DNA from: Alistipes sp. dk3624
GTDB taxonomy: Bacteria; Bacteroidota; Bacteroidia; Bacteroidales; Rikenellaceae
Direction: 5' to 3'
DNA: 64,000 nt
Assembly: GCF_009557455.1 (NCBI RefSeq)
Contig: NZ_CP045651.1
Span: 434,001-498,000, forward strand
Shown: positions 23,213-44,501 of the stretch, one piece after another
Position numbering within the stretch: position 1 is the stretch's first letter
How the letters are laid out: each line of letters opens with the position of its first letter
The notes under the pieces: model-generated
What the model was told of the DNA's origin: nothing
Database searches by the model: none
Seen by the model: only the letters and a program-made list of their open reading frames with translations
Made by a program: the position numbers and the translations under genes

Positions 23213-23458
23213 AAATATCTGCCAAACAGCATTTAACGACACCGGTTTCGCTCGACGCACCCCTCCGATAACCGATTGTCAAAATAAACACATTATCCCG
23301 GATATTCCAAGCCGTTTGCAGCATTTATTTATCGGAGCGTACGAATATCCGGCAACAGAAATACCCTATTTACCGCGTGTGCGGAAAACCGCGGCGACCG
23401 AAACGGAATAAATCCGGCTTAAATTTCGCGCTCCCCCTCCGAAAATCGCTAAAAACAC

Positions 23459-23466
23459 TATATTTG
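23459..23466 (+). promoter_or_regulatory. -7 element for the gene at 23488
   Basis: TATATTTG, an exact TAnnTTTG match, ends 21 nt before ATG 23488. It rules out the longer open frame that begins at 23377. Confidence 0.6.
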
Positions 23467-23487
23467 CGATTCATTCATCGCCGCGCC

Positions 23488-24730: not shown

Positions 24731-25579
24731 TCAGCGGACAAGGTTCGACTCGTCGTCCCGGTAACGATCCTTTTTCGTAAAATAACTTCCCATACCCTTG
24801 AGATACTTGACAATCCGCACCCGGAAACTGTTCAGGAACGAACCGTCGGCGCCGACCGTCCCGTAACCGGTCACCGCACGGGCTTTCCGGCTGCGTACGA
24901 AACCGATCCTGCCGTATTGCTTTAAGCCCAATGCCATCGACCCATCCTCGCCTCGGATAATATCCACCCGGTATCCCACTTTCCGGCCGTAGTCGGCATT
25001 GTAGGCGAACACCAACCCCCGGACGCTCAGTTCCGGCCGTTTGAACGACTGCATCCACAGGTGCGTATCGCGCATAAACTCGTAAATTTTAAGGCCCAGC
25101 CACGGGTGACCTTCGTCCGGCATGTAACTCCACAGCGACGAAACGGCGACGATCCCCGGTCTTTGCAACGCATCCGCCATCGCCTGCACATACCCCGGCG
25201 GATACATCGTGTCGGAATCGATGCAAATGTAATATTTCCCTTGGGCATATTGTAGTCCGCACCGGCGGGCATATCCGCAACTATGTTGCAGTTCGGTATG
25301 ATACGGAATTCCGGACGCTTCGAAAACATCCGCCGTGCGGTCGGCCGAATCGTTATTCACGCCGATGATCTCCATCGGATATTCGCACACGCTTTCCGAA
25401 AGCGACCACAGGCATGCCGGCAGGTGCTTCTCTTCGTTATAGGCGATCACCACGACCGAAACCAGCGGCTCGTCGCTCTGCAATGTCCGAAGCCGGTTGC
25501 GGATTCCGTCCATAACCTCGGCAGGCACACCCGCGTACGGTTTTCCGTAAACGGACAGATATTTTTCGTACCATTTCAT
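24731..25579 (-). CDS. Glycosyltransferase family 2
   Basis: A 282-residue GT-A enzyme with VSVVVIAYNEEKHLPAC, VNNDSADRTADVF and the DxD-type CIDSDTMYPPGYV. After the catalytic domain a C-terminal part rich in basic residues (GSYFTKKDRYRDDE) has no membrane helix. It is the last gene of the 15-gene minus-strand glycan run, 17 nt after the preceding GT4. The 175-nt spacer behind it holds only a weak inverted repeat and no clear terminator. Donor and acceptor unknown. Confidence 0.85.
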   Translation of the reverse strand: MKWYEKYLSVYGKPYAGVPAEVMDGIRNRLRTLQSDEPLVSVVVIAYNEEKHLPACLWSLSESVCEYPMEIIGVNNDSADRTADVFEASGIPYHTELQHSCGYARRCGLQYAQGKYYICIDSDTMYPPGYVQAMADALQRPGIVAVSSLWSYMPDEGHPWLGLKIYEFMRDTHLWMQSFKRPELSVRGLVFAYNADYGRKVGYRVDIIRGEDGSMALGLKQYGRIGFVRSRKARAVTGYGTVGADGSFLNSFRVRIVKYLKGMGSYFTKKDRYRDDESNLVR

Positions 25580-25596
25580 ATTTCCGGCATGATCCT

Positions 25597-26748
25597 TTAC
25601 GAAGTCACCTCATCGAAAAGCTGTCTCCATTGCTGCATAATGGTGTCGATATCGAACCGCCGCACATGTTCCCTCGCCCGGCTCCCCATCCGTTTGCGCA
25701 GTTCGTCCCGTTCGATCAACAGGCATATCTTTTCGGCCAGGTCCTCCACATCCCCGTTTTTCGCCAGCAGTCCGTCCTCGCCGTCACGGATAATATCCTT
25801 CGGCCCGCAGGGACAGGCGAACGCAACCGGAGGTACTCCGCAGGCCATCGCTTCGGCCACGACCAGCCCGAACCCTTCGAAACGCGAAGAAAGCACAAAA
25901 ACGGAACTTTCGCAAAACCTACCGACCACATCGTCGGTAACGCCTTCCAAACGGCAGGTTCGCCGTAATCCGGCCTCTTCGACCATCCGCGCATAAATCG
26001 TCGGATCCCCTCCCCCGTAAATTCGCAACGTCCAGTCCGGATGACGGACCGCCACCCGTTTCCACGCTTCGATCAAAAGGTCGAATCCCTTCTGCCACGT
26101 ATAACGGCCGACGGCAATCGCTTGTTTGGCCGTACACGGAGAAACACGGTCCGGTCCCGGATAGAACGGCAACGGATTGTGGATCGTCGTGACATTATCC
26201 AACTCCGTCCACAGCGCCTCGTCTTCGCGGGTCAGCACCACGAATTTTTTCAATTTTTTCAACTCCCGGATCAACTGCGCGTTCCAGTATTTTTTGACCG
26301 CATCCCGGACGAAACCGGGAAGCATCCGGTTGTTGAAGTCGCGGTAATTGGAACGGTTGAAGTGGATCTCCCCGATTTTCACGCTGCCGTCCGGAACGGT
26401 ATTCAGGAAATTGATGTCCCGGCGCAACAACGAAACCGTAATATCCGGCTTCAACTCGCATAACGTCGAGGTCAGCATTTTTTTGAACTTCCGCAGTCGC
26501 TTCCGGTAATAAACCAGCCGCCGATGCAACGGCAAACCGTACATCCGGTCGAAGTTCAAATCGAAATTGATCGTTTTGACCTTCGGCGAAAGTGGATAAT
26601 AGAACGGCTTGTCCTTCTCTTCGGTCAGGATCACCGTCACGTCGTAACCGAACTCGTCGGCCAGGTAGTTGGCCTTGAGCGTCAGTACCCGTTCCATGCC
26701 GCTCGGAAAATGGAGCCCGGGAATCAGATATACGATTTTTTTTGCCAT
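25597..26748 (-). CDS. Glycosyltransferase family 4
   Basis: A 383-residue GT-B enzyme. The N-terminus has the glycine-rich acceptor loop LIPGLHFPSGMERVL, the middle has AVGRYTWQKGFDLLIEAWK, and the donor site is FEGFGLVVAEAMACGVPPV with the EX7E glutamates. The type resembles galactosyl/GalNAc GT4 enzymes of LPS and capsule clusters; specificity is not predictable. It starts immediately after the stop of the preceding gene (no spacer), supporting co-translation in the glycan operon. Confidence 0.88.
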   Translation of the reverse strand: MAKKIVYLIPGLHFPSGMERVLTLKANYLADEFGYDVTVILTEEKDKPFYYPLSPKVKTINFDLNFDRMYGLPLHRRLVYYRKRLRKFKKMLTSTLCELKPDITVSLLRRDINFLNTVPDGSVKIGEIHFNRSNYRDFNNRMLPGFVRDAVKKYWNAQLIRELKKLKKFVVLTREDEALWTELDNVTTIHNPLPFYPGPDRVSPCTAKQAIAVGRYTWQKGFDLLIEAWKRVAVRHPDWTLRIYGGGDPTIYARMVEEAGLRRTCRLEGVTDDVVGRFCESSVFVLSSRFEGFGLVVAEAMACGVPPVAFACPCGPKDIIRDGEDGLLAKNGDVEDLAEKICLLIERDELRKRMGSRAREHVRRFDIDTIMQQWRQLFDEVTS

Positions 26749-27879
26749 TTATGCCGTCTTTAACGATTCGTCGAGCACTTTGCGCATCTGATTCTCCCAC
26801 GAAAGAAACCGCACGGACTCCCGGATCTCCGCGGCAGAGAAACGGCGTCCGGAACAAAAGGCCACCAATGCGCCGACGTCCAGCGGCGACTCGTCGGCCG
26901 GCGCTTTCAACACATAAGGCATCCGCTCGAAATCGCTGTCGCACTCGGAATAAACGAACGGGATTCCCCGAACCGCATACTCCCTGTTCTTCAAAGTTTT
27001 GATATATGAGATTCCGCTACGATGCCGCCCGAGACTGCCGACGGCCATATCGGCCCGGTCGAACTCCCGATCCAGCGCTTCTCCGAACAGCGGGCCGGTA
27101 AAACGCACCCATCGTTCCAATCCGTTCTGCCGAACGGTCCGGCGCAGTTCGTCGAGCGTCTCAGCCCGGCCGCGGCCCACAATGCTCAGGTACACGTCGG
27201 CCGGGCGCTGTTTGCAAGCATAATAAGCCGCCATCCCCCGTACCAAACGGTCGAACCCGTGCCAGAAACTGATATCGGCCACGGCAACCAGATGCACTTC
27301 GCCGCGAACCGGATCGTGTTCCCGGCGGACCGGAATGCGTTCGAAACTGACCCCGTTGGATATGCGAATCGCCCGCTGTCCGAAAATCGAGCTTAAATCA
27401 CTGAATGTCACCACGGCGCGTAATTGGCGGGCCAGCGCGCGCCGGTAAATACGGTCGATCGCCAGTTCCGTTTTTTCTTTCAGCCCCAGCGTCCGGTACT
27501 CCTGATCGTAGGGATAAGTCGGAATTTCCATCACCATCGCGATGCCGGCCCGGCGTACACGCCGGGCCATCCGAATCGTAAACGGATTGGCGTTATGATC
27601 GGAACGCATGTAAACGAAATCGAAACCGTCCTCTACGATGTAACGGGCAAGCGAACCGTAACGCCATCTTTTTTTTAATTTCCCGACGATCCCGGCGCCG
27701 AGATCCTCCACGACCCGGTCGCCGCCCATGCGTTTCCAGCGTCCCCGTTCGTCCACAGCGAGCGAACCGAGCTCGACCTGATGACCGAGTATCCGCAACG
27801 CCTCGATCTGATAGCCGATCTTCTTACTGATTCCGTTGAACGCATCGAAACCGTGGAATACGAGGAACAGGATTTTCAT
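26749..27879 (-). CDS. Glycosyltransferase family 4-like
   Basis: A 376-residue GT-B type protein. It has an N-terminal Rossmann half with FHGFDAFNGISKKIGYQIEA and a donor half with VAVADISFWHGFDRLV, LSIVGRGRAETLDELR, and a diverged donor site SGISYIKTLKNREYAVRGIPFV that lacks the usual EAMACG wording. It is therefore assigned to glycosyltransferases with less certainty than its neighbours. It overlaps the flippase gene by 4 nt (ATGA) and abuts the next GT gene, so it is firmly inside the glycan operon. Confidence 0.75.
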   Translation of the reverse strand: MKILFLVFHGFDAFNGISKKIGYQIEALRILGHQVELGSLAVDERGRWKRMGGDRVVEDLGAGIVGKLKKRWRYGSLARYIVEDGFDFVYMRSDHNANPFTIRMARRVRRAGIAMVMEIPTYPYDQEYRTLGLKEKTELAIDRIYRRALARQLRAVVTFSDLSSIFGQRAIRISNGVSFERIPVRREHDPVRGEVHLVAVADISFWHGFDRLVRGMAAYYACKQRPADVYLSIVGRGRAETLDELRRTVRQNGLERWVRFTGPLFGEALDREFDRADMAVGSLGRHRSGISYIKTLKNREYAVRGIPFVYSECDSDFERMPYVLKAPADESPLDVGALVAFCSGRRFSAAEIRESVRFLSWENQMRKVLDESLKTA

Positions 27880-29324
27880 GACGGATTACCTTTACGTTTG
27901 AATTTGGCCAAAATATCATATTCCCCGCTAACCTGCAGGTACACAAACAAAGTTAATAAAAAAACGGCCCCTTTCGCCAGGATGCTGACAAGTTCCGGAG
28001 AATCTTTCGTCAGGGCCGTCGTCGCTCCCAGCAACAGCACGAGTATCCCGCTTACCGCCAGCGGCGAAACGAGCTGTCGGCAGAACCCCGACAGGCGGCT
28101 TTTCGCGAACGTCACCCGGTACATCATCCAGTAACACTGCACGAAATTGATCGTAAACGTCACGCAAATGCACCATGCGACCGCCTCCAACGATCGAAAA
28201 ACGAAAATCCCGACCAGAATGCCAGCCACGTTGAGCATCGCCGAAAACGCCCCGCTGACAAAAAGGCTCCGCGTATCGTTAGCCGCCTGGAAAATCCCGC
28301 CGGACGACGCCAGCACGATCTGTACGCCGACCGAAAGAGACAGAATCCGGAAGACCGGCACCGACGGCATCCACTGCGATCCGAAAATAATCAGCACGAC
28401 TTCCTGAGCGGCGAACCACAGAAAAACCGACAGCGGGAAACCGATGAAAGCCAGCAAGCGGACAATCTTCTCATACGACGTGCGCACCCGCTGCAAATCG
28501 TGCTGGAACTCTGAAAATACCGGATGCATGACCGGACTGATCACATGCGTGATGTTTTGCAGCGGCAGCATCATCAGTCGGTACGATTTCTCGTAATACC
28601 CCAACGGAGTCATCCCCATATACTTACCGATCAGCAGTTTGTCCAGGTTCCGGCTGAAATAGTTGATCGCGTTGAACAGGAACTGGTAAGCCGAAAAACT
28701 GAATATCTTCCGGATCGCATCCAGCCCGAAGGTCGGCCGCAGCCGCTGCGGGTAGGCCCGGTACGAAAGGACGAACAGCAGGACGCTCGACAAAATCGGA
28801 TTGACGATCAGCGCGTACAAACCGGCGCCGCACAGCGCCGCTACGATCGAAACCGCTCCGCCTCCGACCTGAACGACCAGATTCCGCACAGCCAGGAAAC
28901 GGAAACGTTTCGCCTTGTGCAGCAGAGCGTTTGGCACGATATTGACCGAAGCGAACAGCAGGTTGACCGACAGCCACTGACACAGGCTTTTCAGGATACT
29001 TTTTTCATAATACGCGGCAATCGGCCACGATGCGGCGAAAAACAGTACGGCCAACAACACGCCCGTCCACACCGTGAACGAGTAAATCTTCGACAGATCT
29101 CCGTCGGTCAGGATCTTGTTCTGTATCACGGCAGCCCCGACTCCCAGATCGCTGAATATGCCGAAAAAACTGATAATTACGGTCGCCACCGCTACGACAC
29201 CGAAATCCTCCGGCGGAATCAGGCGCGCCAGTACGCCGGCGATCACCAGCGAGACGATCAGGCCCGAATACCGGGCGACCGCCGTATAGAATACCCCCGA
29301 AAACAAATCTTTCTTTAGCGACAT
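27876..29324 (-). CDS. Wzx-like lipid-linked oligosaccharide flippase
   Basis: A 482-residue polytopic protein of the MOP/PST (polysaccharide synthase, MviN-like) superfamily, with about 12-14 hydrophobic segments. The N-terminal SGVFYTAVARYSGLIVSLVI and LARLIPPEDFGVVAVATVI are characteristic. In Wzx/Wzy pathways the protein moves undecaprenyl-diphosphate-linked repeat units across the inner membrane. The Wzy-like and Wzz-like genes upstream in the same operon support that role. No sign of truncation. Confidence 0.9.
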   Translation of the reverse strand: MSLKKDLFSGVFYTAVARYSGLIVSLVIAGVLARLIPPEDFGVVAVATVIISFFGIFSDLGVGAAVIQNKILTDGDLSKIYSFTVWTGVLLAVLFFAASWPIAAYYEKSILKSLCQWLSVNLLFASVNIVPNALLHKAKRFRFLAVRNLVVQVGGGAVSIVAALCGAGLYALIVNPILSSVLLFVLSYRAYPQRLRPTFGLDAIRKIFSFSAYQFLFNAINYFSRNLDKLLIGKYMGMTPLGYYEKSYRLMMLPLQNITHVISPVMHPVFSEFQHDLQRVRTSYEKIVRLLAFIGFPLSVFLWFAAQEVVLIIFGSQWMPSVPVFRILSLSVGVQIVLASSGGIFQAANDTRSLFVSGAFSAMLNVAGILVGIFVFRSLEAVAWCICVTFTINFVQCYWMMYRVTFAKSRLSGFCRQLVSPLAVSGILVLLLGATTALTKDSPELVSILAKGAVFLLTLFVYLQVSGEYDILAKFKRKGNPS

Positions 29325-29336
29325 GCCCCGTTCCCT

Positions 29337-30269
29337 TCAGCGTTTGAACAAAAATACGAATAAGGTTCTCACTTTCACGTAACCGAAATAGGGAAACCCG
29401 GCCCGGACGACCCGCCATTTGTCACGCAGCGGCAGCGCATGGGCTTTCCAGATCACCGGATCGACGATATAGGAGAACCACAGCCCGACCAACCGCTTGT
29501 CGCCCGGATGCGAGCGTTTCCAAAAGCGCATCTCACGGAACGCCGTGAAATACCCCTCCATATTGCGCCGGGAAATCCGGTTCGTCATAATCGAACCCTC
29601 GCGGACCCGACGCTTGAAAAAAGCGCGCTCGATACAGCCGACTCGCGCGGCATACAGATACAGCATCGGCGTATAAAGTTCGTCCTCGTGCAGCATGTCC
29701 GGGTAAAAACGGAGTCCGGATTCCCGCAGCAGACCGAGACGAACGAAACTCAAACAGGCCGAAGGCAGGTAACGCCCTTCGCGCAGCAACAGAGCCAGCA
29801 GCTCCCGGCCATCGTAGACACGATCCCGCATTCCCTGCGTTCGTTCGTACCGGATCCCCGGAATATCCGCCCCTTCGTCGGAAAACGCCTCTGCGTCGAA
29901 AATCACGAAATCGAGACGCTGTTCCGTACATTTCCGATAACATGTCTCCAAAGCGTCTTTCTCCAGCAGGTCGTCGCTGTCCATAAAATAAACGAACTCG
30001 CCGGAGGCCCGTGCGATCCCGGCATTCCGCGCCAGGGACAATCCCCGGTTCGGTTGCGAAACGAGAACGATCCGGCCGTCCTCGTCCGCGGCCCGGCGGA
30101 CGATCTCCGCACTGCAATCCGTCGAACCGTCGTCGATCACGATGATCTCGATTTCGCAACAAGTTTGATTCCGGATGCTCTGCAACGTAGCCTCCAGATA
30201 CTTTTCCGTATTATAAACCGGAATCACGACGCTTACTTTCGGCTTACCTTTCTCCATTTCGTTTTCCAT
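29337..30269 (-). CDS. Glycosyltransferase family 2 (capsule/EPS type)
   Basis: A 310-residue GT-A enzyme beginning MENEMEKGKPKVSVVIPVYN. The open frame extends upstream into the acyltransferase gene, but that extension is Arg-rich shadow sequence, so ATG 30269 (or 30257) is the start. Motifs: VIDDGSTDCSAEI, LARNAGIARASGEF and the DxD element MDSDDLLEKDALE. This is the common WcaA/EpsJ-like type in polysaccharide loci. It lies 26 nt after the hexapeptide acyltransferase and 12 nt before the flippase. Confidence 0.87.
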   Translation of the reverse strand: MENEMEKGKPKVSVVIPVYNTEKYLEATLQSIRNQTCCEIEIIVIDDGSTDCSAEIVRRAADEDGRIVLVSQPNRGLSLARNAGIARASGEFVYFMDSDDLLEKDALETCYRKCTEQRLDFVIFDAEAFSDEGADIPGIRYERTQGMRDRVYDGRELLALLLREGRYLPSACLSFVRLGLLRESGLRFYPDMLHEDELYTPMLYLYAARVGCIERAFFKRRVREGSIMTNRISRRNMEGYFTAFREMRFWKRSHPGDKRLVGLWFSYIVDPVIWKAHALPLRDKWRVVRAGFPYFGYVKVRTLFVFLFKR

Positions 30270-30295
30270 TCCGAACGGATCCACAGGCCCTTCGG

Positions 30296-30907
30296 TCAAT
30301 TTTTTTTCCACAAACCGGCCTCCCGGTCGTAATACTTTACGATCCGCGCCGGATTTCCGGCCGCCACACAACACTCCGGGACGTTTTTCGTCACAACGGC
30401 ACCGGCTGCAACGACGCTGTGAGAACCGATACTGACCCCGGCCAGAATCACGGCGTTGGCTCCGATCCATACGTCGTCGGCGATCACGACTTCCGACGTC
30501 GAAACGCCCTGCGCCGCAATCGGAGCGCAAATATTTTCGAAATTATGATTCAGCCCCGACACGGTAATTCCTTGGGCCAGATTGACGTCGTCGCCGATAC
30601 GCACCGGCCCGATGATCGTATTGCCCAGTCCGATGCGGCTCCGGTCGCCGATACGCACCGCGCCGACCGCATTGTTGACCGTACTGAAATCCTCGATCAC
30701 CGAACGCGCGCCGAGCGAAAACGGATTGAACGGAACGATATCCAACCGCGCGCTGCGGCAGACGACCGAGCCTTTCCCGCGTTCGGTATAAAACCGCCGG
30801 AACAGGCGCAACCATCCCCGCGGCCGAGTTTTGACCGGATGCACCATCGCATTCAGCAGGCGGCGCTTAAGCTCCGGATTCTGCTTTATTTTCTCTTTCA
30901 AACTCAT
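30296..30907 (-). CDS. Hexapeptide-repeat (left-handed beta-helix) acyltransferase
   Basis: A 203-residue protein with imperfect hexapeptide repeats across residues ~75-185 (IGDRSRIGLGNTIIG, IGDDVNLAQG, VWIGANAVILAGVSIGSHSV) and the typical end VVTKNVPECCVAAGNPARI. Members such as WcaF and maltose O-acetyltransferase use acetyl-CoA to acetylate sugars; here the likely acceptor is a sugar of the exopolysaccharide repeat unit. It sits 5 nt after a GT2 gene. Acyl donor and acceptor are inferred from family only. Confidence 0.87.
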   Translation of the reverse strand: MSLKEKIKQNPELKRRLLNAMVHPVKTRPRGWLRLFRRFYTERGKGSVVCRSARLDIVPFNPFSLGARSVIEDFSTVNNAVGAVRIGDRSRIGLGNTIIGPVRIGDDVNLAQGITVSGLNHNFENICAPIAAQGVSTSEVVIADDVWIGANAVILAGVSIGSHSVVAAGAVVTKNVPECCVAAGNPARIVKYYDREAGLWKKN

Positions 30908-30912
30908 AATAA

Positions 30913-32103
30913 TCAGTTTACGACAGATTCGTCACCGTGTTCGGTATGAATAAAACGCTTGTTTACGCCCCGCAACCGGAAGAGGTTCAGCACCATCCCG
31001 GCGGCCAAGCCAGGCGCCTTCCGCAGCGCCCCGCTCAGTTGCCTGTCCGCATGGGAATCCGGGATCGCCATCGCCACCGCCAACCCGATCAGCCACAGCA
31101 GGATTCCCCATTTAATCCCCCAAACGGGATCGGCCGCCGTAAACAGTACCCCGAAAAAAAGAATGCCGGCAATCAGCACCGCCCTCGGCAGCAGCATCCA
31201 CTGGAACAACTTGTCGGCGTAATCGAAATTACCGCCGGCAATCGCCCCGGGCAGGTCGCGAAGGCCTTTCGCCAACGCGCCGAACTGCGCCGCCAGCCAA
31301 CGCCTGCGCTGGTTGCCGAACGCCTCTCCGCGCTGGGTTTTCTCGTCGTAGACCGGAACGTCCGGCAGGTAATGAATATATATTCCCTGCTTCAACAACA
31401 GGGCTTCCAACTCTTTGTCCTCGCCGGCCGTACACGTTTTGCGGATATTATCGCGAAACCATCCGTAATCGAAAGCCATCCCCGAACCGGTCAGCGCCGA
31501 CGAAAGCCCGCTGCGGATATGCCCGGCCCGGAATACCGCATTGTTGATCTCCTCGCTGACGGCGTCGAGAACGGCCGTCGGCGTATTGCGGTTTTTGGCC
31601 TGACGATGCGCTTGGACGGCCCGCGTACCCGTCTCGAACGTTTCGTTCAGCCGTCGCAGGAAATCGGGCTGCACCGTATTGTCGGCATCCATCACTACCG
31701 CGACGTCGTACCGTTTCCGATCCAGCTTATCGACGGCGAACGTAAGCGCCCGGGCCTTCGAACTGTTTTCGAAATCCGCTTCGAGCAGCGTTACCGGCAG
31801 TCCGGACAACCGCTCGTTCGTCCGATCCTGCATCCGATCCGAAATCACGACCACTTCGTAGAAATCGGCCGGATAATCCTGCCGCAAAAAAGACTCCACA
31901 GCCTCTACGATCACACGGTCTTCCTTGTAGGCCGGAAAAAACACGGCGAAACGCCGCTTGCTGCGGACTGGCCGCCGCACGGCGCTCCACGGTCGCAGCA
32001 TCCCGCCCTTCCAGGCGAAAAACAGCAGATACGCGACCTGCACTGCAAACACGATCCACAACAGGATATCGGCCCAACCGGCTATTTCGTACAAAACCGC
32101 CAT
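30913..32103 (-). CDS. Processive-type membrane glycosyltransferase family 2
   Basis: A 396-residue protein with an N-terminal membrane helix, a GT-A domain and two to three C-terminal helices (residues ~285-350). It shows FPAYKEDRVIVEAVESF, the DxD motif VVMDADNTVQPDFL, GEDKELE and the QxxRW-type NQRRRWLAAQ seen in cellulose- and hyaluronan-synthase-like enzymes. It may extend or elongate a chain while threading it through the membrane, or act as a single-addition GT. It follows a GT2 gene by 9 nt and precedes the acyltransferase by 5 nt. Confidence 0.86.
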   Translation of the reverse strand: MAVLYEIAGWADILLWIVFAVQVAYLLFFAWKGGMLRPWSAVRRPVRSKRRFAVFFPAYKEDRVIVEAVESFLRQDYPADFYEVVVISDRMQDRTNERLSGLPVTLLEADFENSSKARALTFAVDKLDRKRYDVAVVMDADNTVQPDFLRRLNETFETGTRAVQAHRQAKNRNTPTAVLDAVSEEINNAVFRAGHIRSGLSSALTGSGMAFDYGWFRDNIRKTCTAGEDKELEALLLKQGIYIHYLPDVPVYDEKTQRGEAFGNQRRRWLAAQFGALAKGLRDLPGAIAGGNFDYADKLFQWMLLPRAVLIAGILFFGVLFTAADPVWGIKWGILLWLIGLAVAMAIPDSHADRQLSGALRKAPGLAAGMVLNLFRLRGVNKRFIHTEHGDESVVN

Positions 32104-32112
32104 GACATAAAA

Positions 32113-34456: not shown

Positions 34457-34471
34457 TGCGGCATTTTCTGT

Positions 34472-36643: not shown

Positions 36644-36646
36644 AAT

Positions 36647-37453
36647 TTATTTTTTCGAAATGATTTCGGTATTCGACAGAATCTCCAGTTGCAACAGCAA
36701 ACCGTACAGTTCCGAACGCACATTCTCGTATTCGGTGATGGCCTTAATCTGACGTTCCTTTTCGACATTGATTTCCGACGCTCCGATTTTACTGTTGATA
36801 AAATCGTTCTGGCTGATGGCATACTGAGCATCGGCAAATACCCTTTTCTCGGTCGTCGCCTTCAGAATAGGCATGTAACTGAGCACTTTCGAGTAGATCG
36901 TTGCGATGGTTACCCGCCGCTCCTCGATCGCGCTCTGCCGTTCGTATTCGACCTTTTCCACCTGTTTGCGCTGACGTTTCACGCTTCCCCGCAAATCGAA
37001 CAACTTTTCCAGCGGAATCGAAACCGATGCGCCCAGGTTGTAATTGGACTGCGACTGCCGGGAATAGTTTTGCGGAATCGGCATACCGCTCTCATCGTAA
37101 AGATGACTGCTCATCGTCCCGTTGCCGTAATAATAATTGGCATTGACGTTCAGAAAAGAGAGGAAATTCCGTTTCTCGCGTTTCAACTGCAACTCCTCGA
37201 ATTCTTTCTGTTTTTCCAGCGCCAGCACGCCGGGGTTCTGCTCCGCATTGGCATAGAGCTGCTCCAGCGACGGCAGAACGACCTTGCCCAACTCATAGCC
37301 CGAAGGCCCGAAACCGGCCAGGTCGTCGATCGTATCCGTGGCGGCGGCGCTCGCCGGAACCGCTCCATCCAAACTATCAGGTTGCTGGGCCGTAACCGCC
37401 CCGCAACACAAAATCGCGGTCAGCGCGATCAAACCCGAAACTCTTTTCGACAT
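36647..37453 (-). CDS. Short TolC-like outer-membrane export protein
   Basis: A 268-residue exported protein (MSKRVSGLIALTAILCCGAV signal, cleavage near VTAQQ). The mature part has one TolC-type unit: SLEQLYANAEQNPGVLAL, a beta-strand pair with FLSVNANYYYG-like sequence and NYNLGASVSIPL, then long alpha-helical coils to the C-terminus. Classical TolC/OEP proteins carry two such units in ~450 residues, so this is about half-size and would need six copies instead of three for a 12-strand barrel, if it forms a channel. A start at 37462 (MYSMSKRV) is possible but overlaps the preceding gene by 8 nt. It is 3 nt before the Wzz-like gene, so a role in polymer export is likely. Confidence 0.78.
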   Translation of the reverse strand: MSKRVSGLIALTAILCCGAVTAQQPDSLDGAVPASAAATDTIDDLAGFGPSGYELGKVVLPSLEQLYANAEQNPGVLALEKQKEFEELQLKREKRNFLSFLNVNANYYYGNGTMSSHLYDESGMPIPQNYSRQSQSNYNLGASVSIPLEKLFDLRGSVKRQRKQVEKVEYERQSAIEERRVTIATIYSKVLSYMPILKATTEKRVFADAQYAISQNDFINSKIGASEINVEKERQIKAITEYENVRSELYGLLLQLEILSNTEIISKK

Positions 37454-37454
37454 A

Positions 37455-38630
37455 CTATACATTTTCTTTTTGTACGAACGCTGATATCGTTTTTAAGATT
37501 ATCCGGAAATCCATCCCGAACGAAAAATCCCGGGCATATTCGATGTCCAGTTTCTTCCGCTCTTCGGCGGACATACTGCCCGAATCGCCCCGCTTCTCTA
37601 CCTGCCATAACCCGGTCAGCCCGGCCGGAGCCATAAAACGGTCGATATATTCGTCGCTGGTCAGCCGTTCGGCTTCGTACAACGGCAGCGGACGGTTCCC
37701 CACAACGGACATATCTCCTTTCAGGATATTGATCAATTGCGGAAGTTCGTCGATGCTGTATTTGCGAATGAACCGCCCGACCCGCGTAATCCGCGGATCG
37801 TTTTCCAGTTTCACGAATGCATTTTCCTGTTCATAGCTTTTCTGGTCGATGTATTCCTTTTCTAAAATCACCTCGTCATCGGAAACCAACACCACGTCGT
37901 CGTCGCCGACCAAAAAATCTCCGGAAATATTCAATTTTCCGCCGTCCTCATCGGTCGTCTTCTCGAATTTATACTGGTTCAACTGCTCGTAATGCTTCAA
38001 TTGCTTTTCAGCCCCCGCATACATCGACCGGAATTTCAGGAAATCGAATACCCGGTAGTTGCTTCCCACCCTCTTGGAACGATAAACCGCCGCGCCTTTG
38101 CTTTCCAGTCGGATTGCCAGCATCGTCAGCAGCAGCAACGGCGACAGCGACAGCAAAGCGACCGACGAGAAACAGATGTCGAAAAGCCTTTTCCATAAAG
38201 GCAGGCGAAAATGGCAGATCGCTTCCTGCGACGCTTTCTCCCTTTTTCCGAGAATCATCTCCCGGGTCTGCTGTATAAACGAAAGCCGGCTTACGAACTG
38301 TTCTTTCGGAATATGCCGGAGCATGGTATCGTTCACGCCCGCTTTCAGGTATCCGCTCCTCTCGTCCGGCGTCAGTTCATTTCCTATCAGAATCAGGTAA
38401 ACATTCCCGCGGGTTTTCCGAAAAGCCCTGATCGCGGACAAATCCCTGTCTATCGTCGTTTTTTCCCAAAGAACGACGATTTCGCTTTTCGAATCGCCTG
38501 ATCCGACCTGTTGCAGGGAATTACTGCCGTCGGCCGCTTCACGAAACGAATACCCGTCGGCAATATCGCGAAAATACTCTTTCAATACGGAATCCGGTCC
38601 GACAAAAAGCAGATCGAACTCTTTACTCAT
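37455..38630 (-). CDS. Initiating sugar-phosphate transferase with N-terminal receiver-like domain
   Basis: A 391-residue protein. Residues ~143-391 are a bacterial sugar transferase (WbaP/PglC type): membrane helix 150-175, LKFRSMY at 198-204, the catalytic Asp-Glu of SIDELPQ at 292-298, and GDMSVVGNRP. This enzyme class moves a sugar 1-phosphate to undecaprenyl phosphate and starts the repeat unit. Residues 1-~125 have the alpha/beta pattern of a receiver domain (FDLLFVGPDS, SEIVVLWEKT, VYLILIGNE, LKAGVNDTML), but Trp55 replaces the phosphoacceptor Asp, so it is a pseudo-receiver. An acidic insert (~225-256) follows KFRSMY. Its start overlaps the response-regulator gene by 8 nt. Confidence 0.87.
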   Translation of the reverse strand: MSKEFDLLFVGPDSVLKEYFRDIADGYSFREAADGSNSLQQVGSGDSKSEIVVLWEKTTIDRDLSAIRAFRKTRGNVYLILIGNELTPDERSGYLKAGVNDTMLRHIPKEQFVSRLSFIQQTREMILGKREKASQEAICHFRLPLWKRLFDICFSSVALLSLSPLLLLTMLAIRLESKGAAVYRSKRVGSNYRVFDFLKFRSMYAGAEKQLKHYEQLNQYKFEKTTDEDGGKLNISGDFLVGDDDVVLVSDDEVILEKEYIDQKSYEQENAFVKLENDPRITRVGRFIRKYSIDELPQLINILKGDMSVVGNRPLPLYEAERLTSDEYIDRFMAPAGLTGLWQVEKRGDSGSMSAEERKKLDIEYARDFSFGMDFRIILKTISAFVQKENV

Positions 38631-38994
38631 TTTCGATGATCTTCCGGATTCTGATTTTCAACTCCATGGGATTAAACGGTTTGACGATATAATCGGAAGC
38701 GCCCACTTCCAGCAGGCGTATCCGTTCGGAGGTGCTTTCCTCGCTCGACAGAATAATCACAGGGAAAGATTTGAACAGCTCGTTGTTCTTGACATATTCC
38801 AGAAACTCATCGCCGCGCATAACCGGCATCCGAATGTCCGAAATTATCAGATCGGGCTTATTCCCCTCCTGTAGCCACTGAATCCCCTTCAATGCATTGT
38901 CGAAATAAACGACATCGTATTCGCCGGATAAATAAACCGCCACCACTTTCGCTATGGACTCCTTATCGTCCAAAAGCAAAATCGTTTTCTTCAT
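38623..38994 (-). CDS. Single-domain response regulator of the glycan operon
   Basis: A 123-residue receiver without output domain. The phosphorylation site is intact: Asp9-Asp10 (LLLDDKES), Asp53 (IISDIRMPVMRG), Ser83 region (ILSSEES) and Lys105 (VKPFN). ATG 38994 was chosen over an upstream in-frame codon at 39039 because the shorter form begins exactly at the receiver strand and lies behind a TACATTTG element. It follows two histidine kinase genes and overlaps the sugar transferase gene. It may act by protein contact, for example with the receiver-like domain of that transferase (inference). Confidence 0.9.
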   Translation of the reverse strand: MKKTILLLDDKESIAKVVAVYLSGEYDVVYFDNALKGIQWLQEGNKPDLIISDIRMPVMRGDEFLEYVKNNELFKSFPVIILSSEESTSERIRLLEVGASDYIVKPFNPMELKIRIRKIIENE

Positions 38995-39000
38995 AACTTC

Positions 39001-39014
39001 CGATTTTAAAATCG
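39001..39014. promoter_or_regulatory. 14-bp perfect palindrome in the response-regulator leader
   Basis: CGATTTTAAAATCG is an exact palindrome 7 nt upstream of the response-regulator ATG and downstream of the TACATTTG element. Its position suits an operator or a leader hairpin; no binding protein is known. Confidence 0.4.
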
Positions 39015-39055
39015 CAATATTCCCGGCGGAGCGCAACATACCCGAATCCGTCAGA

Positions 39056-39063
39056 CAAATGTA
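39056..39063 (-). promoter_or_regulatory. Candidate internal promoter before the response regulator
   Basis: The minus strand reads TACATTTG, an exact TAnnTTTG match, 61 nt upstream of ATG 38994 in the only sizeable gap (75 nt) of the long operon. It would allow the response regulator and glycan genes to be expressed apart from the two kinases. No -33 TTTG at the expected distance. Confidence 0.45.
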
Positions 39064-39069
39064 AATAAA

Positions 39070-41865
39070 TTATTTAATAATCGTTCTTTTTTTAATCCTA
39101 TAAGGTAATTTAAACCAAAAATAAGAACCTTTGCCCGTTTTCGACTCGGCTCCGATGCGACCGCCCAGTTGCTCGATCAAACTTTTACAGATAGGCAGTC
39201 CCAATCCGGTTCCCTGAATAAAACTGTTCAACTTCACGAACCGGTCGAAAACATGACCGAGCTGCTCTTTGGAAATCCCGACGCCGGTATCGCGGACATA
39301 AAACACCACATCGTTCTTATGCGGCACGAGTCCCGCATGAATACTGCCCTTCGAAGTAAACTTGGCGGCATTGTTGATAAAATTCACCAGCACCTGGGCA
39401 ATCCGATTCTTGTCGCTGTGTACGACGCATTCCGCCGCCGGTTCGTCGAAAATCAGCTCTACGCCGGGCTGCGTTTTCATCCGTAGCGACATAACGATTT
39501 CACGGCATAGCCTGTTGCACGGCACGTCCGCATAATTGAATTCGAAAACGCCCGCTTCGATCTTCGACAGATCGAGAATATCCGAGACCAACTGCAACAA
39601 CAAATCGCTGTTATCCTGCACGATCTGCATATAATGCTCCCGGTCTTCCTTCTCGAAAGCTTCCTGACTCAGTAACATCTGGGAGAAACCGACGATCGCA
39701 TTCAACGGAGTGCGGATCTCATGGCTCATGTTCGCCAGGAACGCGGATTTCAACCGATCCATTTTTTCCGCTTTCTCTTTGGCCACGATCAGGCTTTGCT
39801 GGGTCTCCTTGATCTGGGTAATGTCGATATTCACCCCGATCACCTCGGTCGACCCGTCGGCAAGGGAGTTTACGATCATGTCGATGCGCAGCCACCGCCA
39901 TTTCCTGTCGGCGGGCCCTTTGACCCGGACTTCCCGCTGGTAAGAATCGACTCTACGGTTCCGGGCCGCAGCGAAGAACGCATACATGTGTTTGCGATCC
40001 TCCCGGTGCACATAGCGGAATCCCCGGCCGGCCACCTCCCGCACGCTCGAATGGACCGGCTCGCCCAGATTTCGGAACCACTGCGGAATGGCCGTTCCAG
40101 TCTGCGTATCGAAATTGTATTTTCCATACCCCACTTTCGCGAAATCGGCAATCAGCGAGAAGATATGCTCGAAATCGTGGATCCGGTTCTGGATATTGAC
40201 CGTATCGGTGTTATCGATCACGATGCACAGATGGTAAAGCAGGCGGTTGCCGCCGTCATAAAGCGGAACATACTTGGCGACGATATCCTTACGGGTATCC
40301 CGGTCTTCGAAAGACGTATTGTAATAATCGCTGAGCAGACCGAACCGGTAGTCCAGCCGGAAATCGACCGGTTGCCTGTTCCGAATCTTCTCTTTCACCT
40401 GCTCCGGCACCAGCGGGTTGTCCATAATATTGATTCCCAATACCTCGTCCGGCCGGACGCCGAAAATCTCGCAATCTTTCGGATTGATACTTCTCAGACT
40501 GCCTTCCGGATCGTACAGTTCGATCCCGACCGGAATGTTCCGGAACAAGTTATCGAGCATTCGTTCGTGCTGCTTGGATTCTTCATTGGCTTTTACGGTT
40601 TCCGTCTCGTCTTTCAGCAGGGTAATCACCTCGTCGGGACCGGATAAATAATCGATCTCCTTGCAGTGCACTCCCGTCCGTTCGATATAACGATCGCGCT
40701 TGTACTGTAATTTTTGCTCCGGAGAAGTCGACCGGATGATCGACAGGCTGGTGTTCACCTCCTCCTGAGAAAGTATATCCGAAGCCCGGAGACCGGCCAG
40801 TTCCTCGCAGGCAAGACCGATCAGTTTTTCAGCCATCTGGTTGGCGTATTCGAACCGGCAGTCCGTAACTTTGCCGGAACCGTCGCGCACCAAACGGCTG
40901 CGCAAGAATCCGATCGGCATGTGACTGTACAGCTCCTTATAATACAAACTTTCCCGTTCCGCCTTTTTTCGACTGTAATAAAGCCCTATGCAAATGGAAA
41001 TGATGTTGGCCAGAAAGGAGAACCACTGGTAATCCTCCCGGCTCCAGTTACGGGACTCCCGCACCATATCGATCCCCATGTATCCGTAAACGGATTCCGT
41101 AGACATCATAGGCACCACCATCAACGACCGAATGTTCTGTGCGTCAAGAATATTTCTTTCCTGAACGATCTGCGGCGGAAGATCGTCCAGCGTATTGAGA
41201 ATAATCGGCCGTTTGTTCAGAACCTGCCCGCTCCACCACGGACTCTCTTCCAAAGGCATCTTCTGCAACATGTCGATCTGCGGCGAAGTGCCTTCGGCGA
41301 CTGCTTCGTAAACGCAACTATGATATTTTTCCGACTCGTTCAGTTCGAAAATATAGGCCCGGTCGGCATGGAAACGCTTCAAAAGCTCTTTCAGGATATT
41401 TTCGCATACATGTTTCAGATCCTTTGTCTTGAGGAAAGAGAACAACAAACGGGATATATGCTTTTGCTGCTGCAATATATCGTTGACCTGCCGTCTGCTT
41501 GCTTCACCTCCCTTCGGCAACAACAACACCGAGAAAAGCGCCTTTCCGCCGTGTTCCCCGGCATACGCGCACCTCACCCACTGTTCCCCGGCCGAAACGG
41601 CGATCGGAAATTCAATCGCCGTTTTCGAATCGCCGTGATCGGACAGCAACACACTGGCGTCCACTCGGCTTCTGAAATCCGTCCGGACCAACTGCAAAAA
41701 ATCATTCTGGCTCAACGTATCATTCGATAGATCAAGAGCATCCCCCAGCAATGAAGAAAAATGGCAACGCCCTCCTCCGGACTCTTTTTCGATCCATCCC
41801 ACCTGCGCCGCGTCCAGCAGACACTGCATTTTCCGAATATCCAAATTATCTTCCGACAATTCCAT
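39070..41865 (-). CDS. Soluble GAF/PAS sensor histidine kinase
   Basis: A 931-residue kinase without membrane helices. Order: N-terminal region, possibly PAS (1-120); GAF domain (~140-295, HADRAYIFELNESEKYHSCV to GYMGIDMV); three PAS-like domains (~305-425, 435-560, 565-695); HisKA with His715 in ANMSHEIRTPLNAIVGFS; HATPase_c (~815-920) with NFINNAAKF, DTGVGIS and GTGLGLPICKSL. It ends after the ATPase, with no receiver, so it must pass phosphate to a separate receiver. The response regulator 75 nt downstream is the likely partner. The input signal is intracellular but unknown. Confidence 0.9.
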   Translation of the reverse strand: MELSEDNLDIRKMQCLLDAAQVGWIEKESGGGRCHFSSLLGDALDLSNDTLSQNDFLQLVRTDFRSRVDASVLLSDHGDSKTAIEFPIAVSAGEQWVRCAYAGEHGGKALFSVLLLPKGGEASRRQVNDILQQQKHISRLLFSFLKTKDLKHVCENILKELLKRFHADRAYIFELNESEKYHSCVYEAVAEGTSPQIDMLQKMPLEESPWWSGQVLNKRPIILNTLDDLPPQIVQERNILDAQNIRSLMVVPMMSTESVYGYMGIDMVRESRNWSREDYQWFSFLANIISICIGLYYSRKKAERESLYYKELYSHMPIGFLRSRLVRDGSGKVTDCRFEYANQMAEKLIGLACEELAGLRASDILSQEEVNTSLSIIRSTSPEQKLQYKRDRYIERTGVHCKEIDYLSGPDEVITLLKDETETVKANEESKQHERMLDNLFRNIPVGIELYDPEGSLRSINPKDCEIFGVRPDEVLGINIMDNPLVPEQVKEKIRNRQPVDFRLDYRFGLLSDYYNTSFEDRDTRKDIVAKYVPLYDGGNRLLYHLCIVIDNTDTVNIQNRIHDFEHIFSLIADFAKVGYGKYNFDTQTGTAIPQWFRNLGEPVHSSVREVAGRGFRYVHREDRKHMYAFFAAARNRRVDSYQREVRVKGPADRKWRWLRIDMIVNSLADGSTEVIGVNIDITQIKETQQSLIVAKEKAEKMDRLKSAFLANMSHEIRTPLNAIVGFSQMLLSQEAFEKEDREHYMQIVQDNSDLLLQLVSDILDLSKIEAGVFEFNYADVPCNRLCREIVMSLRMKTQPGVELIFDEPAAECVVHSDKNRIAQVLVNFINNAAKFTSKGSIHAGLVPHKNDVVFYVRDTGVGISKEQLGHVFDRFVKLNSFIQGTGLGLPICKSLIEQLGGRIGAESKTGKGSYFWFKLPYRIKKRTIIK

Positions 41866-41891
41866 AGCGCGAAATAACCTACAATCCGAAT

Positions 41892-44501
41892 TTAAAGATA
41901 CTTGTTAAACAACCGTTCGACTTGTTCCCGGCTCCAGGGAACAGCCATGAAATCATCGTAACAGTCCGTCGGCGCAGAATTGCCGAATGCGACGACCGGA
42001 ACCCCGGGAGATACCTCTTTAATGATTCCGGCGACCTCGGCGCAGTTTATATCCGTCACGGCGACATTCAACAAAACCAACTGGGGGCGGTACTGCTCGA
42101 ACAACGTAACCGCCTCTACGCCGCTGTCGGCCCGTACGAAAAAGATCCCGTCTCCGAAAGTATCGCACAGCAGATCGAAATCCGACGGCTCGCTCTCCAC
42201 GACCAGCACCGTCACGGTACCGGAAACAGCCTTCCGTGCCCCGGCTTTCCGGACAGACGTTTTCAGCCTGCCCGGATTTCCCGAACCGACACGCTCGTTC
42301 ACCGGCGGAACATATGGAATCGTAAATACGAACTTCGTGCCTCTTCCTATCGCCGACTCCACGCCGATCCGTCCGCCCATCTTTTCGATCAATACTTTAC
42401 AGATAGGCAGGCCGAGTCCCGTTCCCTGAGCGAAATCGTTTCCTTTGACGAACCGGTCGAAAATCTTATCCTGCTTGTCGGTCTCGATCCCCGATCCCGT
42501 ATCTTCCACATAACAGACGATATTCGGTCCGTCGAGCCGGTACCCGAACGTCACACGCCCGGAATCTGTAAATTTGAACGCATTGGTAATCAGGTTCGCA
42601 AAAACCTGGAACAGGCGGTTCGGATCGGTACGGGTCACCAGATTCGGACTCGATCCGTCGAACGAGAAAATCACATTGCCCGGACAACGGAACAGGTTGG
42701 CATTGAGCAACTCCCCGCACAGCACCCGCATATTGACCGGCTTGGACGACAGTTCCAGCATCCCCGCCTCGATCTTCGACATGTCCAGGATCTCATTGAT
42801 CAGCGACAACAACCGTTCGTTGTTGGTCTCTACGATCTTATACATTCCGCGGCGTTCTTCCATATCCTGAGTCTCCGCAATGATATTCGAAAATCCGACG
42901 ATCGCATTCAGCGGAGTCCGGATCTCGTGGCTCATATTGGCCAGGAACGCCGACTTCAGGCGTCCCGACTCTTCGGCTTTCTCTTTGGCCTCTACGAGTT
43001 CTTTCTCCAAAGCGACACGGGAAGTAATATCCCAAAACACACCGATAATCAAAGGCGTGCCGTCTTTCTTCTCTGAATAGATACGCACCTCCTCGTACGT
43101 GACAGGAGAACCGGAGGCTCCGCCGACCTGCCCGGTACGTTCGATCTTCGTCCGGTCGGAAACAAGCTGCAGGTCTTCATTTCGGATGGCTTCGGCTTTG
43201 CTGCGGCCGAATATCTCAAAATCGTTCTTTCCGATCACGTCCTCGCGGCCGGACCGCAGGAAATCGAATGCCGACCGGTTGCAGAACAGGTACTTGAAAT
43301 CATCGGCGACGTCCTTGACATACAGGCCGACCGGAATATTATTGATAATCGAATTGGTCAGGTATTGCAGACTGTTGATCTCGTCTTCCCGCTTCAGACG
43401 TTCGGAGATATCCCGGGCGAACACCCAGATCAATTCCTGGTGCAACTGATTCTCAATCAAGTAAGAGTAATTCTCGAAAGTCATCGCCTCTCCCTGACCG
43501 TCCGACACCCTGTCCTGCGTAAAATTCCAACTGCCGCCGTTTTCCCGGAGACTCCTGAGCCAATCGCCCCATTGCGTCTTGTCTACCAGCGTTTTATTCA
43601 GGTCGAACACCTTCTCGCCGATGACATCCCGTGAGCGATCGCTCACGTTATGTTCCAGAAACGTTTTATTGGCGAATGCCAACGAACCGTCGGATTCGAC
43701 GGCGAAAACATCCTCAGAAACGGAATCGATAGCCTGCCGCAACATCTCGATGCGCGTCTGTCCGGTAATCAGATCCGTAACATTCTGCACATAACCTTCC
43801 CACAGATAGCCTCCGTCGGAAGGCCGGCAACTGATCGGCTCGACCCGCAGCACCACATCCCCGTACTGGTAATGCATCATATACTGGATACTCTCTTGCC
43901 GACGGCCGGCGTCCAACCCCCGGATATATTCCTTGACCTTTTCCACGTCCGTCACAGACATCCGAGAAAAATATTCGGCCATATCCATCTCCCGGTATTC
44001 GCCCGGTTGGAACATAGGATCGGCATACCCCTTCGATTCGAGCCGCTGCTTTTTCGAATCGTACTTCCACACGCCGATCCCGGCGAGCCTTTTCAGATCT
44101 TCCACCTTTTGTTCCTCCTGCCGCAGCAGTCGCTCGTGCTTATTGATATAATAGGAAATATTCCTCAGCCGGATCATAGCGTGGAAGTCGTCGTATCGGC
44201 TCATCGAAATCACATAATAAACGGACAATTCCCCCGTTTCCCCCGCACATTCGTAAAGATCTTCGCAAAATCCTTTCCGTCCGCTCCACAAGGTTGAAAA
44301 TCCGGCGCGCAACGAGCCCGAAGCCGAAGCCGGAAAAAGGTCGAAAATATTCTCCCCCACCATCCGATTGCTCAGATAGCGGTCTTCGGTCTGGAGCTGG
44401 GCATGCACACACATCCCGCCCCGATCGACCAGCAATAAATTTCCCGAGCACAATCCACGATCCCTGGACGGACATTGTATCTCAAATCTAAACGTTTCCA
44501 T
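41892..44501 (-). CDS. Soluble multi-PAS histidine kinase with degenerate C-terminal receiver
   Basis: An 869-residue kinase without membrane helices. PAS-like domains cover about residues 20-115, 130-245, 250-370 and 380-495. HisKA has His525 (ANMSHEIRTPLNAIVGFS). HATPase_c has NLITNAFKF, DTGSGIE and GTGLGLPICKVL. Residues 762-869 look like a receiver, but Asn812 replaces the phosphoacceptor Asp (QLVLLNVAV) and the conserved Lys is lost (MAVPWS). ATG 44501 is preferred to ATG 44528, because the TATCTTTG element at 44539 would leave almost no leader for the latter. It is the first gene of the long glycan operon, 26 nt before the second kinase. Confidence 0.88.
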   Translation of the reverse strand: METFRFEIQCPSRDRGLCSGNLLLVDRGGMCVHAQLQTEDRYLSNRMVGENIFDLFPASASGSLRAGFSTLWSGRKGFCEDLYECAGETGELSVYYVISMSRYDDFHAMIRLRNISYYINKHERLLRQEEQKVEDLKRLAGIGVWKYDSKKQRLESKGYADPMFQPGEYREMDMAEYFSRMSVTDVEKVKEYIRGLDAGRRQESIQYMMHYQYGDVVLRVEPISCRPSDGGYLWEGYVQNVTDLITGQTRIEMLRQAIDSVSEDVFAVESDGSLAFANKTFLEHNVSDRSRDVIGEKVFDLNKTLVDKTQWGDWLRSLRENGGSWNFTQDRVSDGQGEAMTFENYSYLIENQLHQELIWVFARDISERLKREDEINSLQYLTNSIINNIPVGLYVKDVADDFKYLFCNRSAFDFLRSGREDVIGKNDFEIFGRSKAEAIRNEDLQLVSDRTKIERTGQVGGASGSPVTYEEVRIYSEKKDGTPLIIGVFWDITSRVALEKELVEAKEKAEESGRLKSAFLANMSHEIRTPLNAIVGFSNIIAETQDMEERRGMYKIVETNNERLLSLINEILDMSKIEAGMLELSSKPVNMRVLCGELLNANLFRCPGNVIFSFDGSSPNLVTRTDPNRLFQVFANLITNAFKFTDSGRVTFGYRLDGPNIVCYVEDTGSGIETDKQDKIFDRFVKGNDFAQGTGLGLPICKVLIEKMGGRIGVESAIGRGTKFVFTIPYVPPVNERVGSGNPGRLKTSVRKAGARKAVSGTVTVLVVESEPSDFDLLCDTFGDGIFFVRADSGVEAVTLFEQYRPQLVLLNVAVTDINCAEVAGIIKEVSPGVPVVAFGNSAPTDCYDDFMAVPWSREQVERLFNKYL

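Follow-up and report, generated by a model that had tools for sequence, protein, structure and literature searches.

Undecaprenyl phosphate is common to peptidoglycan and other surface glycans, and how a cell controls the first step that commits it to any one of them is a real question. It is raised in a concrete form by an exopolysaccharide locus of Alistipes sp. dk3624 (Bacteroidota), which we studied in a window of 64,000 nucleotides (nt; contig NZ_CP045651.1, positions 434,001 to 498,000) of a genome comprising a single contig of 3.02 Mb. Here the gene for a stand-alone receiver, REC, overlaps at its 3' end the start of the gene for the initiating phosphoglycosyl transferase, PGT, by 8 nt. 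We find that REC keeps its phosphosite and is the conserved upstream neighbor of a transferase whose own N-terminus is predicted to be a pseudo-receiver, an arrangement that suggests post-translational control of the first step of the glycan. The two genes are:

38623..38994, minus strand: REC, a stand-alone receiver with a Pfam Response_reg match only; its open reading frame could start at 39039.
37455..38630, minus strand: PGT, a predicted pseudo-receiver (amino acids (aa) 1-135) followed by a monotopic phosphoglycosyl transferase domain (aa 147-386), as delineated by Pfam, AlphaFold2, Foldseek, HHalign and hydropathy.

PGT is the sole Bac_transf match in a search of its whole genome, and Pfam detects only the catalytic domain in it (PF02397, E 6e-58, aa 147-386). 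The fold of this domain is that of Campylobacter concisus PglC (PDB 8e37, 8g1n; Foldseek E 5e-13), and a single hydrophobic segment at 149-176, the membrane-entering helix, is in keeping with a monotopic enzyme. The PglC entries, at 185-193 residues, have no receiver domain, in contrast to PGT, for which AlphaFold2 (35 sequences; mean predicted local distance difference test score, pLDDT, 82) places strands and helices alternating five times in aa 5-135 ahead of the catalytic domain. The pLDDT of the ten-residue blocks between 11 and 120 is 85-96, except for 67 at 41-50. Foldseek matches this (beta-alpha)5 receiver fold to many CheY-like receivers in the PDB, such as 2qxy (TM-score 0.83 on the target), and HHalign aligns a profile of the PGT N-termini to the adjacent RECs with a probability of 99.0% over 121 columns (one row containing X was kept in the alignment). 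In many relatives REC models match the PGT N-terminus directly (self hits), though Pfam Response_reg reaches E<=0.01 in just 2 of 35 PGT N-termini. The window PGT has Glu56 at the phosphosite and has lost the acidic pair, so that it lacks the residues of a phospho-acceptor; across 113 loci (PGTs shorter than 341 aa or containing X were excluded) the phosphosite is Glu in 91, Asp in 8 and another residue in 14. One of the PDB matches, 2jb9, is titled as a constitutively active PhoB double mutant, D10A and D53E; this is resemblance only, yet it fits a PGT domain frozen in one state. On the strength of the predicted structure, then, the N-terminus of PGT is a pseudo-receiver. Assignment of PGT to the large monotopic transferases of the WbaP/EpsZ type was rejected, given the receiver fold at its N-terminus and the lack of an N-terminal four-helix bundle (the segment at 149-176 being the only one); PGT also scores below the cut-offs of TIGR03025, TIGR03022 and TIGR03023.

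REC presents the opposite picture. The sequence-only reading, an earlier annotation of this stretch made without database searches, had described it as a receiver without a DNA-binding domain, and the Pfam scan bears this out, with Response_reg and no output domain. Its phosphorylation residues are present in the alignment, making it a single-domain receiver with an intact phosphosite inside the polysaccharide locus of PGT. Over the 113 pairs, Asp53 is kept in 110 and both the Ser/Thr and Lys105 in all 113; the pairs are not all independent, as the samples overlap (locus L076 lies on the contig of L032, and genomes G254, G313 and G473 were sampled at the order and again at the phylum level). 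A receiver-model search of the whole genome returned 24 matches, among which REC (148 aa) and a second receiver, REC2 (127 aa), are the only frames under 200 aa.

The pairing of the two genes was traced at successive phylogenetic depths. Among 150 genomes of the family, a full-length PGT is found in 8, own genome included, with REC immediately upstream in all 8, and a broken PGT in G032 is likewise preceded by REC. The PGT profile finds matches at E<=1e-50 in 67 of 393 order-level genomes; REC lies directly upstream in 28 of the top 29 loci (own excluded), the remaining locus beginning at a contig end, and in one of the 28 (L064) PGT is shortened. Further long PGTs of the order with enough flank have REC upstream in 32 of 33 cases. 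In a sample of the phylum PGT is matched in 45 of 395 genomes, and REC stands beside 17 of 18 long PGTs in the 29 loci drawn from it. Another set of nearly all Bacteroidota-named records (L076-L130) has REC within about 200 nt upstream in 52 of 55; of the three misses, two fall at contig ends, and in L115 a short PGT is preceded by a receiver at a distance of 2.5 kb. The pairs in this set come from genera and groups such as Bacteroides, Prevotella, Mediterranea, Dyadobacter (D. fermentans, L110), Pedobacter (P. suwonensis, L116), Mucilaginibacter and Saprospiraceae. The counts were made after setting aside L074, L094, L127, L155, L169 and L192 (contig end or fewer than 300 bases upstream) and L131 (57 bases), and the own genome enters neither the phylum nor the Fisher counts. 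Order-level places without a locus numbered 50, of which 41 were covered by the regions examined and 9 were left out, and at the phylum level the 30 places given a locus were examined. Short PGTs served as controls: none of the family's 21 others has an adjacent REC in the 0.9-1.5 kb searched upstream, nor does any of 5 close short paralogs at the order level, which rules out REC and PGT being chance neighbors. Outside Bacteroidota a separate adjacent REC was found at none of 24 loci (L131 offering only its 57 upstream bases, and L145 having a receiver 2.9 kb away). Judged by gene neighborhoods, the REC-PGT adjacency is thus phylum-wide in Bacteroidota, and the two genes constitute a conserved unit.

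Two variant layouts were seen alongside this unit. In an Anaerolineae metagenome-assembled genome (MAG; L142:7260-8315) an intact receiver and PGT occur on one chain, a natural fusion of both partners. In a Rikenellaceae MAG (L129:9194-10708) two separate receiver genes precede a 236-aa PGT, with two kinases divergent upstream, as if the fused domain of PGT were its own gene.

Certain loci weigh against a role for the pseudo-receiver as the docking site of REC. At the phylum level 4 of 11 short PGTs adjoin REC, so that the pseudo-receiver is not always needed, and the notion of it as a strict requirement for pairing was discarded on this count; four of the 11 (L229, L231, L235, L237) stop within a longer match, and some of these may be shortened long PGTs. 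In addition, the long PGTs of L170 (order) and L228 (phylum) have flanking sequence without REC. Such cases invite the reading that REC acts on another part of the machine, such as the co-polymerase or a glycosyltransferase, or serves as a phosphate sink between kinases, with the receiver domain of PGT being the relic of an old fusion. It would account for the mostly poor conservation of the pseudo-receiver positions and for REC adjoining PGTs that lack the domain, as also seen in L117 and L129. However, PGT remains the neighbor of REC at loci with different genes downstream (L254, L255, L077, L082, L083, L108, L114), 17 of 21 other phylum-level PGTs with REC keep the pseudo-receiver, and the fusion in L142 joins an intact receiver to PGT itself; hence we consider this reading unlikely.

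Control of an initiating transferase by a single-domain receiver has a precedent. According to Schwabe et al. (2025, PMC12802240), Myxococcus xanthus EpsW is a single-domain response regulator that activates the initiating phosphoglycosyl transferase EpsZ. Phosphorylated EpsW acts on EpsZ post-translationally and is found near it by proximity labelling, EpsW increases EpsZ activity in a heterologous host, and deletion of epsW abolishes the glycan while both transcripts and proteins of the cluster stay at unchanged levels. The likeness to the window lies in a stand-alone receiver of the eps locus that is phosphorylated by a kinase and acts on the transferase starting a Wzx/Wzy pathway (PMC12802240). 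The two systems differ in that EpsZ is a large monotopic transferase with a four-helix bundle and a cytoplasmic domain of unknown function (PMC12802240), neither of which is found in the window PGT, which carries the pseudo-receiver in their place; moreover, the kinase in M. xanthus, DifE, belongs to a chemosensory system (PMC12802240), whereas the one in the window is probably a protein of REC-HisKA-HATPase architecture. REC matches the EpsW-type NCBIfam model NF041866 at 54 bits (E 1.2e-14), under its 200-bit cut-off. Schwabe et al. suggest that the principle is wider than EpsW-EpsZ, and the string "Bacteroid" has no occurrence in the main text of their paper (PMC12802240). Receiver domains on small monotopic transferases had already been noted by a network study of 2021 (O'Toole, Imperiali and Allen, PNAS), as we gather from the discussion in PMC12802240, and those proteins, like the window PGT, have the receiver domain on the transferase chain. 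In the literature linking a receiver domain or single-domain response regulator with a phosphoglycosyl transferase we came upon EpsW and work on myxobacterial pili only, and other papers may exist. The fusion as such has therefore been noted already, and it is the pair of a live and a dead receiver, along with a co-inherited kinase, that looks new.

The picture that emerges starts from computed features, namely the receiver fold predicted for the PGT N-terminus, the adjacency of REC and PGT and how widely it occurs, the phosphosite kept in REC and lost in PGT, and the co-inheritance within one clade of a kinase, RECHK, described below. In it, the locus would make an exopolysaccharide by a Wzx/Wzy-type route, the first step of which is under direct phospho-control. 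Soluble histidine kinases would phosphorylate REC, chiefly RECHK, while two further kinases, HK2 and HK1, would feed in additionally or in particular lineages. Phosphorylated REC would then dock on the non-phosphorylatable pseudo-receiver and switch the membrane-anchored PGT, most likely on, so that undecaprenyl phosphate would be committed to this glycan under the inducing signal only. We infer the phosphotransfer and its partners from co-inheritance, and the physical REC-PGT contact, the switching and its direction from pairing, fold and precedent; the inducing signal is likewise putative. As a whole, we regard it as probable. The suggestion of the sequence-only reading that the receiver acts post-translationally is in itself well supported by the adjacency, the pseudo-receiver, the phospho-Asp in 110 of 113 pairs and the Myxococcus precedent. 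A more pointed version would have the live and dead receivers form a phosphorylation-controlled hetero-pair, in which the Glu-frozen half fused to PGT offers a permanent dock and REC switches, fed in this clade by RECHK, as a form of post-translational control of the first step across Bacteroidota; here we see the chances as evenly poised. On either version, the locus and its relatives would represent a different architecture of the EpsW-EpsZ idea across this phylum, naming a receiver, a docking domain and a likely kinase, with a mechanism amenable to a two-protein assay.

Which kinase feeds REC was approached through co-inheritance, and the clearest case is a gene that the sequence-only reading had missed, on the opposite strand beyond the head of the cluster:

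45839..46981, plus strand: RECHK, receiver, HisKA and HATPase_c domains, 380 aa, with no other sensor domain (Pfam).
44858..45805, plus strand: EPI, an NAD-dependent epimerase/dehydratase (Pfam), which adjoins RECHK in 11 of 20 loci compared.

At E<=1e-50 RECHK occurs in 9 of the 150 family genomes, comprising all 8 that are PGT-positive and G033. Another 17 carriers were identified across the order at E<=1e-99, and PGT is present in 16. Conversely, 16 of the 18 strongest order-level PGT genomes (E<=1e-128) have RECHK, a Fisher p of about 2e-25 with shared ancestry ignored and with both cut-offs picked after viewing the lists (RECHK of G281 stands at 2.8e-100); the two outside the set are G172, where a fragment of 70% identity lies at the end of a contig, and G151, whose match is weaker. 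Candidates scored per genome numbered 13 for RECHK and 5 for HK2 in the family, 4 for PGT (order and phylum) and for RECHK in the order, and 2 for HK2 in the order, so that absences are soft. RECHK and PGT lie on one contig within 20 kb in 13 of 16 order-level genomes, and in G227 and G330 (L254, L255) EPI, RECHK, REC and PGT are contiguous on one strand. RECHK is thus the most clearly co-inherited kinase within one PGT clade and, as far as such co-occurrence goes, probably the best candidate kinase for REC. It matches the NCBIfam model EpsF (NF041880) in two stretches (E 2e-53) without being a member, at 181.5 bits vs a cut-off of 900, and many other kinase models match it as well as EpsF does. 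In another group of Bacteroidota (L237, L238, L240) three consecutive genes encode a kinase that bears a receiver, REC, and a short PGT that lacks the pseudo-receiver.

Other features of its distribution speak against RECHK as a general partner. Among the 66 other order-level PGT genomes (E<=1e-50) only 16 have it at E<=1e-99, and at this cut-off it is absent from all 48 that fall outside the 18 strongest, confining it to one PGT clade; other kinases must therefore act in the rest, and this lowers our confidence in the mechanism slightly. RECHK also occurs without PGT in G033 and G208, lies on a different contig from PGT in G285 and G254 and some 537 kb off in G473, and a kinase of any kind was seen within the flanks examined in just 3 of 30 Bacteroides/Prevotella-type loci (L076-L105).

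The sequence-only reading had instead placed two kinases at the head of the operon:

41892..44501 (alternative ATG start 44528), minus strand: HK1, PAS-HisKA-HATPase with a C-terminal degenerate receiver (Pfam).
39070..41865, minus strand: HK2, GAF-PAS-HisKA-HATPase without a receiver (Pfam).

Their description as soluble kinases with multiple PAS domains was accurate in that hydropathy predicts no membrane helix in HK2, and overstated for HK1, where the PAS match is one stretch only (aa 384-496). The degenerate receiver of HK1 scores 23.3 bits, below the cut-off, with Asn at the phosphosite, and the only hydropathy segment just over threshold in HK1 falls within it. HK2 relatives of full length have open frames of 1063-1105 aa, compared with 931 aa for the window HK2, which may have lost a C-terminal receiver.

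If HK1 and HK2 were the dedicated kinases, co-transcribed with REC and the glycan genes, their shared strand and short gaps in the window would be readily explained, and HK2 does show some linkage to the locus. At E<=1e-120 it is found in 7 of the 150 family genomes, all PGT-positive, and it sits at the cluster end in G041, G012 and, from another family, G209 (L245, L247, L257); by this distribution HK2 is partly co-inherited with the locus. Likewise, the nearest relative, G074, has an HK1 homolog (52% identical) that points away from EPI-RECHK, matching the layout of the window (L246), at a contig end, the contigs ending before the REC junction; HK2 was not found in G074, a genome 69% complete. 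On the other hand, HK2 occurs at E<=1e-150 in just 3 of 328 other order-level genomes, one of which (G406) is not among the listed PGT matches. A search of the own genome with HK1 gives nine matches at E<=1e-60, counting HK1, which was dropped as a single dedicated kinase on account of this large paralogous set.

The order of two kinases, REC and sugar transferase appears in none of the 7 family relatives with readable DNA upstream of REC, nor at the other loci read, and was rejected as a conserved arrangement; what recurs is the REC-PGT unit. Kinases leading the operon are accordingly no conserved feature, the nearest kinase being divergent and just upstream of REC in 5 of the 7 (G020, G041, G100, G127, G133), with a small receiver-like frame intervening in G127 and G133. 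In G012 a kinase is 6.5 kb from REC, and the stretch read in G032 shows none. A kinase tree (220 columns, low support at several nodes, 5 own-genome HATPase places omitted) groups the divergent kinases of G041, G100, G127 and G133 with the own-genome kinase L200, far from the window. Single kinases on the same strand ahead of REC were seen in L109, L111, L178 (apparently unrelated), L237, L238, L240, L254 and L255. The idea of a kinase and receiver set dedicated to this glycan is supported for REC, with its phylum-wide pairing, in part for HK2, and less so for HK1, a member of a paralogous set; a dedicated, co-transcribed HK1 and HK2 we hold to be possible and on balance doubtful, leaving RECHK as the favored kinase.

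The promoter signals also bear on co-transcription. The gap between HK2 and REC, at 75 nt the widest of the run, holds a TAnnTTTG box, which we take to be the -7 promoter element of Bacteroidota:

39056..39063, minus strand: TACATTTG, a candidate -7 element ahead of REC, found by pattern match.

A second such box lies at 44539-44546 ahead of HK1. Across the whole window the pattern is near chance (24 vs 19.8 expected); among related REC genes a box within 150 nt is present in 25 of 37 (one further locus with a short flank being skipped), compared with 4.6% of random 150-nt windows, which are not matched intergenic ones, and many Prevotella-type REC genes have it at about 49 nt. Sigma-70-type sites are fewer than in shuffles (5 vs 8.6) and terminator-like sites, at 14, are close to the shuffle mean of 10.6. 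Going by the boxes, a separate transcript probably starts at REC in many relatives, and one may start there in the window too, a point that also tells against HK1 and HK2 as co-transcribed partners. Of the operon originally proposed, the gene order and short gaps stand, and a single transcript becomes doubtful because of the candidate box. Transcription would be the seat of control if the kinases acted through a DNA-binding regulator on the cluster, with REC a tuning branch and the gene order ordinary operon packing. Such pathways are commonly regulated at that level (PMC12802240), though no DNA-binding regulator is present among the scanned cluster and flanking proteins and REC has no output domain; we judge this very unlikely beside direct control of PGT by REC.

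The remainder of the cluster fits an exopolysaccharide pathway. The claimed run of 15 genes on the minus strand from 44501 to 24731 was borne out by a check of genes and gaps (-17 to 75 nt), and domain scans agree with the identities given for HK1, HK2, REC, Bac_transf, OEP, the co-polymerase-like protein, Wzy_C, the glycosyltransferases, the acyltransferase and Wzx. The label Wzz-like needs tempering, the protein having a weak likeness to TIGR03007, below its cut-off, and no Pfam match at E<=0.001. Downstream of PGT the run continues on the minus strand:

36647..37462, minus strand: OEP, a short TolC-like outer-membrane protein (Pfam OEP) with an N-terminal hydrophobic, signal-peptide-like segment.
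34472..36643, minus strand: WZZ, polysaccharide co-polymerase-like, with two hydrophobic segments (TIGR03007 E 6e-17; hydropathy; alignment).
32993..34456, minus strand: WZY, O-antigen ligase/polymerase family (Pfam Wzy_C).
32113..33009, minus strand: GTa, a GT2 glycosyltransferase (domain match).
30913..32103, minus strand: GTb, a GT2 glycosyltransferase (domain match).
30296..30907, minus strand: HEX, a hexapeptide acyltransferase (domain match).
29337..30269, minus strand: GTc, a GT2 glycosyltransferase (domain match); the listed frame is over-long and the likely start is the ATG at 30269.
27876..29324, minus strand: WZX, flippase (PF13440).
26749..27879, minus strand: GTd, a GT4-type glycosyltransferase (domain match).
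25597..26748, minus strand: GTe, a GT4-type glycosyltransferase (domain match).
24731..25579, minus strand: GTf, a GT2 glycosyltransferase (domain match).

The presence of PGT, Wzx and Wzy in one cluster points to a Wzx/Wzy-dependent pathway, equipped with four GT2 and two GT4-type glycosyltransferases and the hexapeptide acyltransferase (Pfam/NCBIfam). A Wza/OPX outer-membrane export protein is not among the scanned cluster proteins, the rest of the genome being unsearched, and the TolC-like OEP is the only outer-membrane candidate there. OEP, with 271 aa and a single OEP stretch, is about half the usual length of TolC; homologs in relatives are of similar length, so that OEP may assemble differently. 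The C-terminal part of WZZ has a damaged Walker-A-like motif, GDGKH, where the consensus of relatives is GDGKS, recalling EcpK, a BY pseudokinase of M. xanthus to which PMC12802240 refers.

The cluster extends beyond 24731, where a plus-strand gene is followed by a second minus-strand stretch (19730..23260) and a convergent receiver gene:

23377..24555, plus strand: EEP, an Exo_endo_phos family protein (Pfam), with homologs beside the clusters of several relatives.
22037-23260, minus strand: an Acyl_transf_3 acyltransferase (domain match).
20905-22023, minus strand: a GT4 glycosyltransferase (domain match), with homologs inside the clusters of relatives.
19730-20908, minus strand: GTh, a GT2 glycosyltransferase (domain match), likewise with homologs inside the clusters of relatives.
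19330..19695, plus strand: REC2, another stand-alone receiver, convergent with GTh at the cluster's far end (receiver-model match G000:C1:453354-453683).

Elsewhere in the window, at 49532-50461 on the minus strand, a single protein joins an NYN nuclease-like domain to a cold-shock domain.

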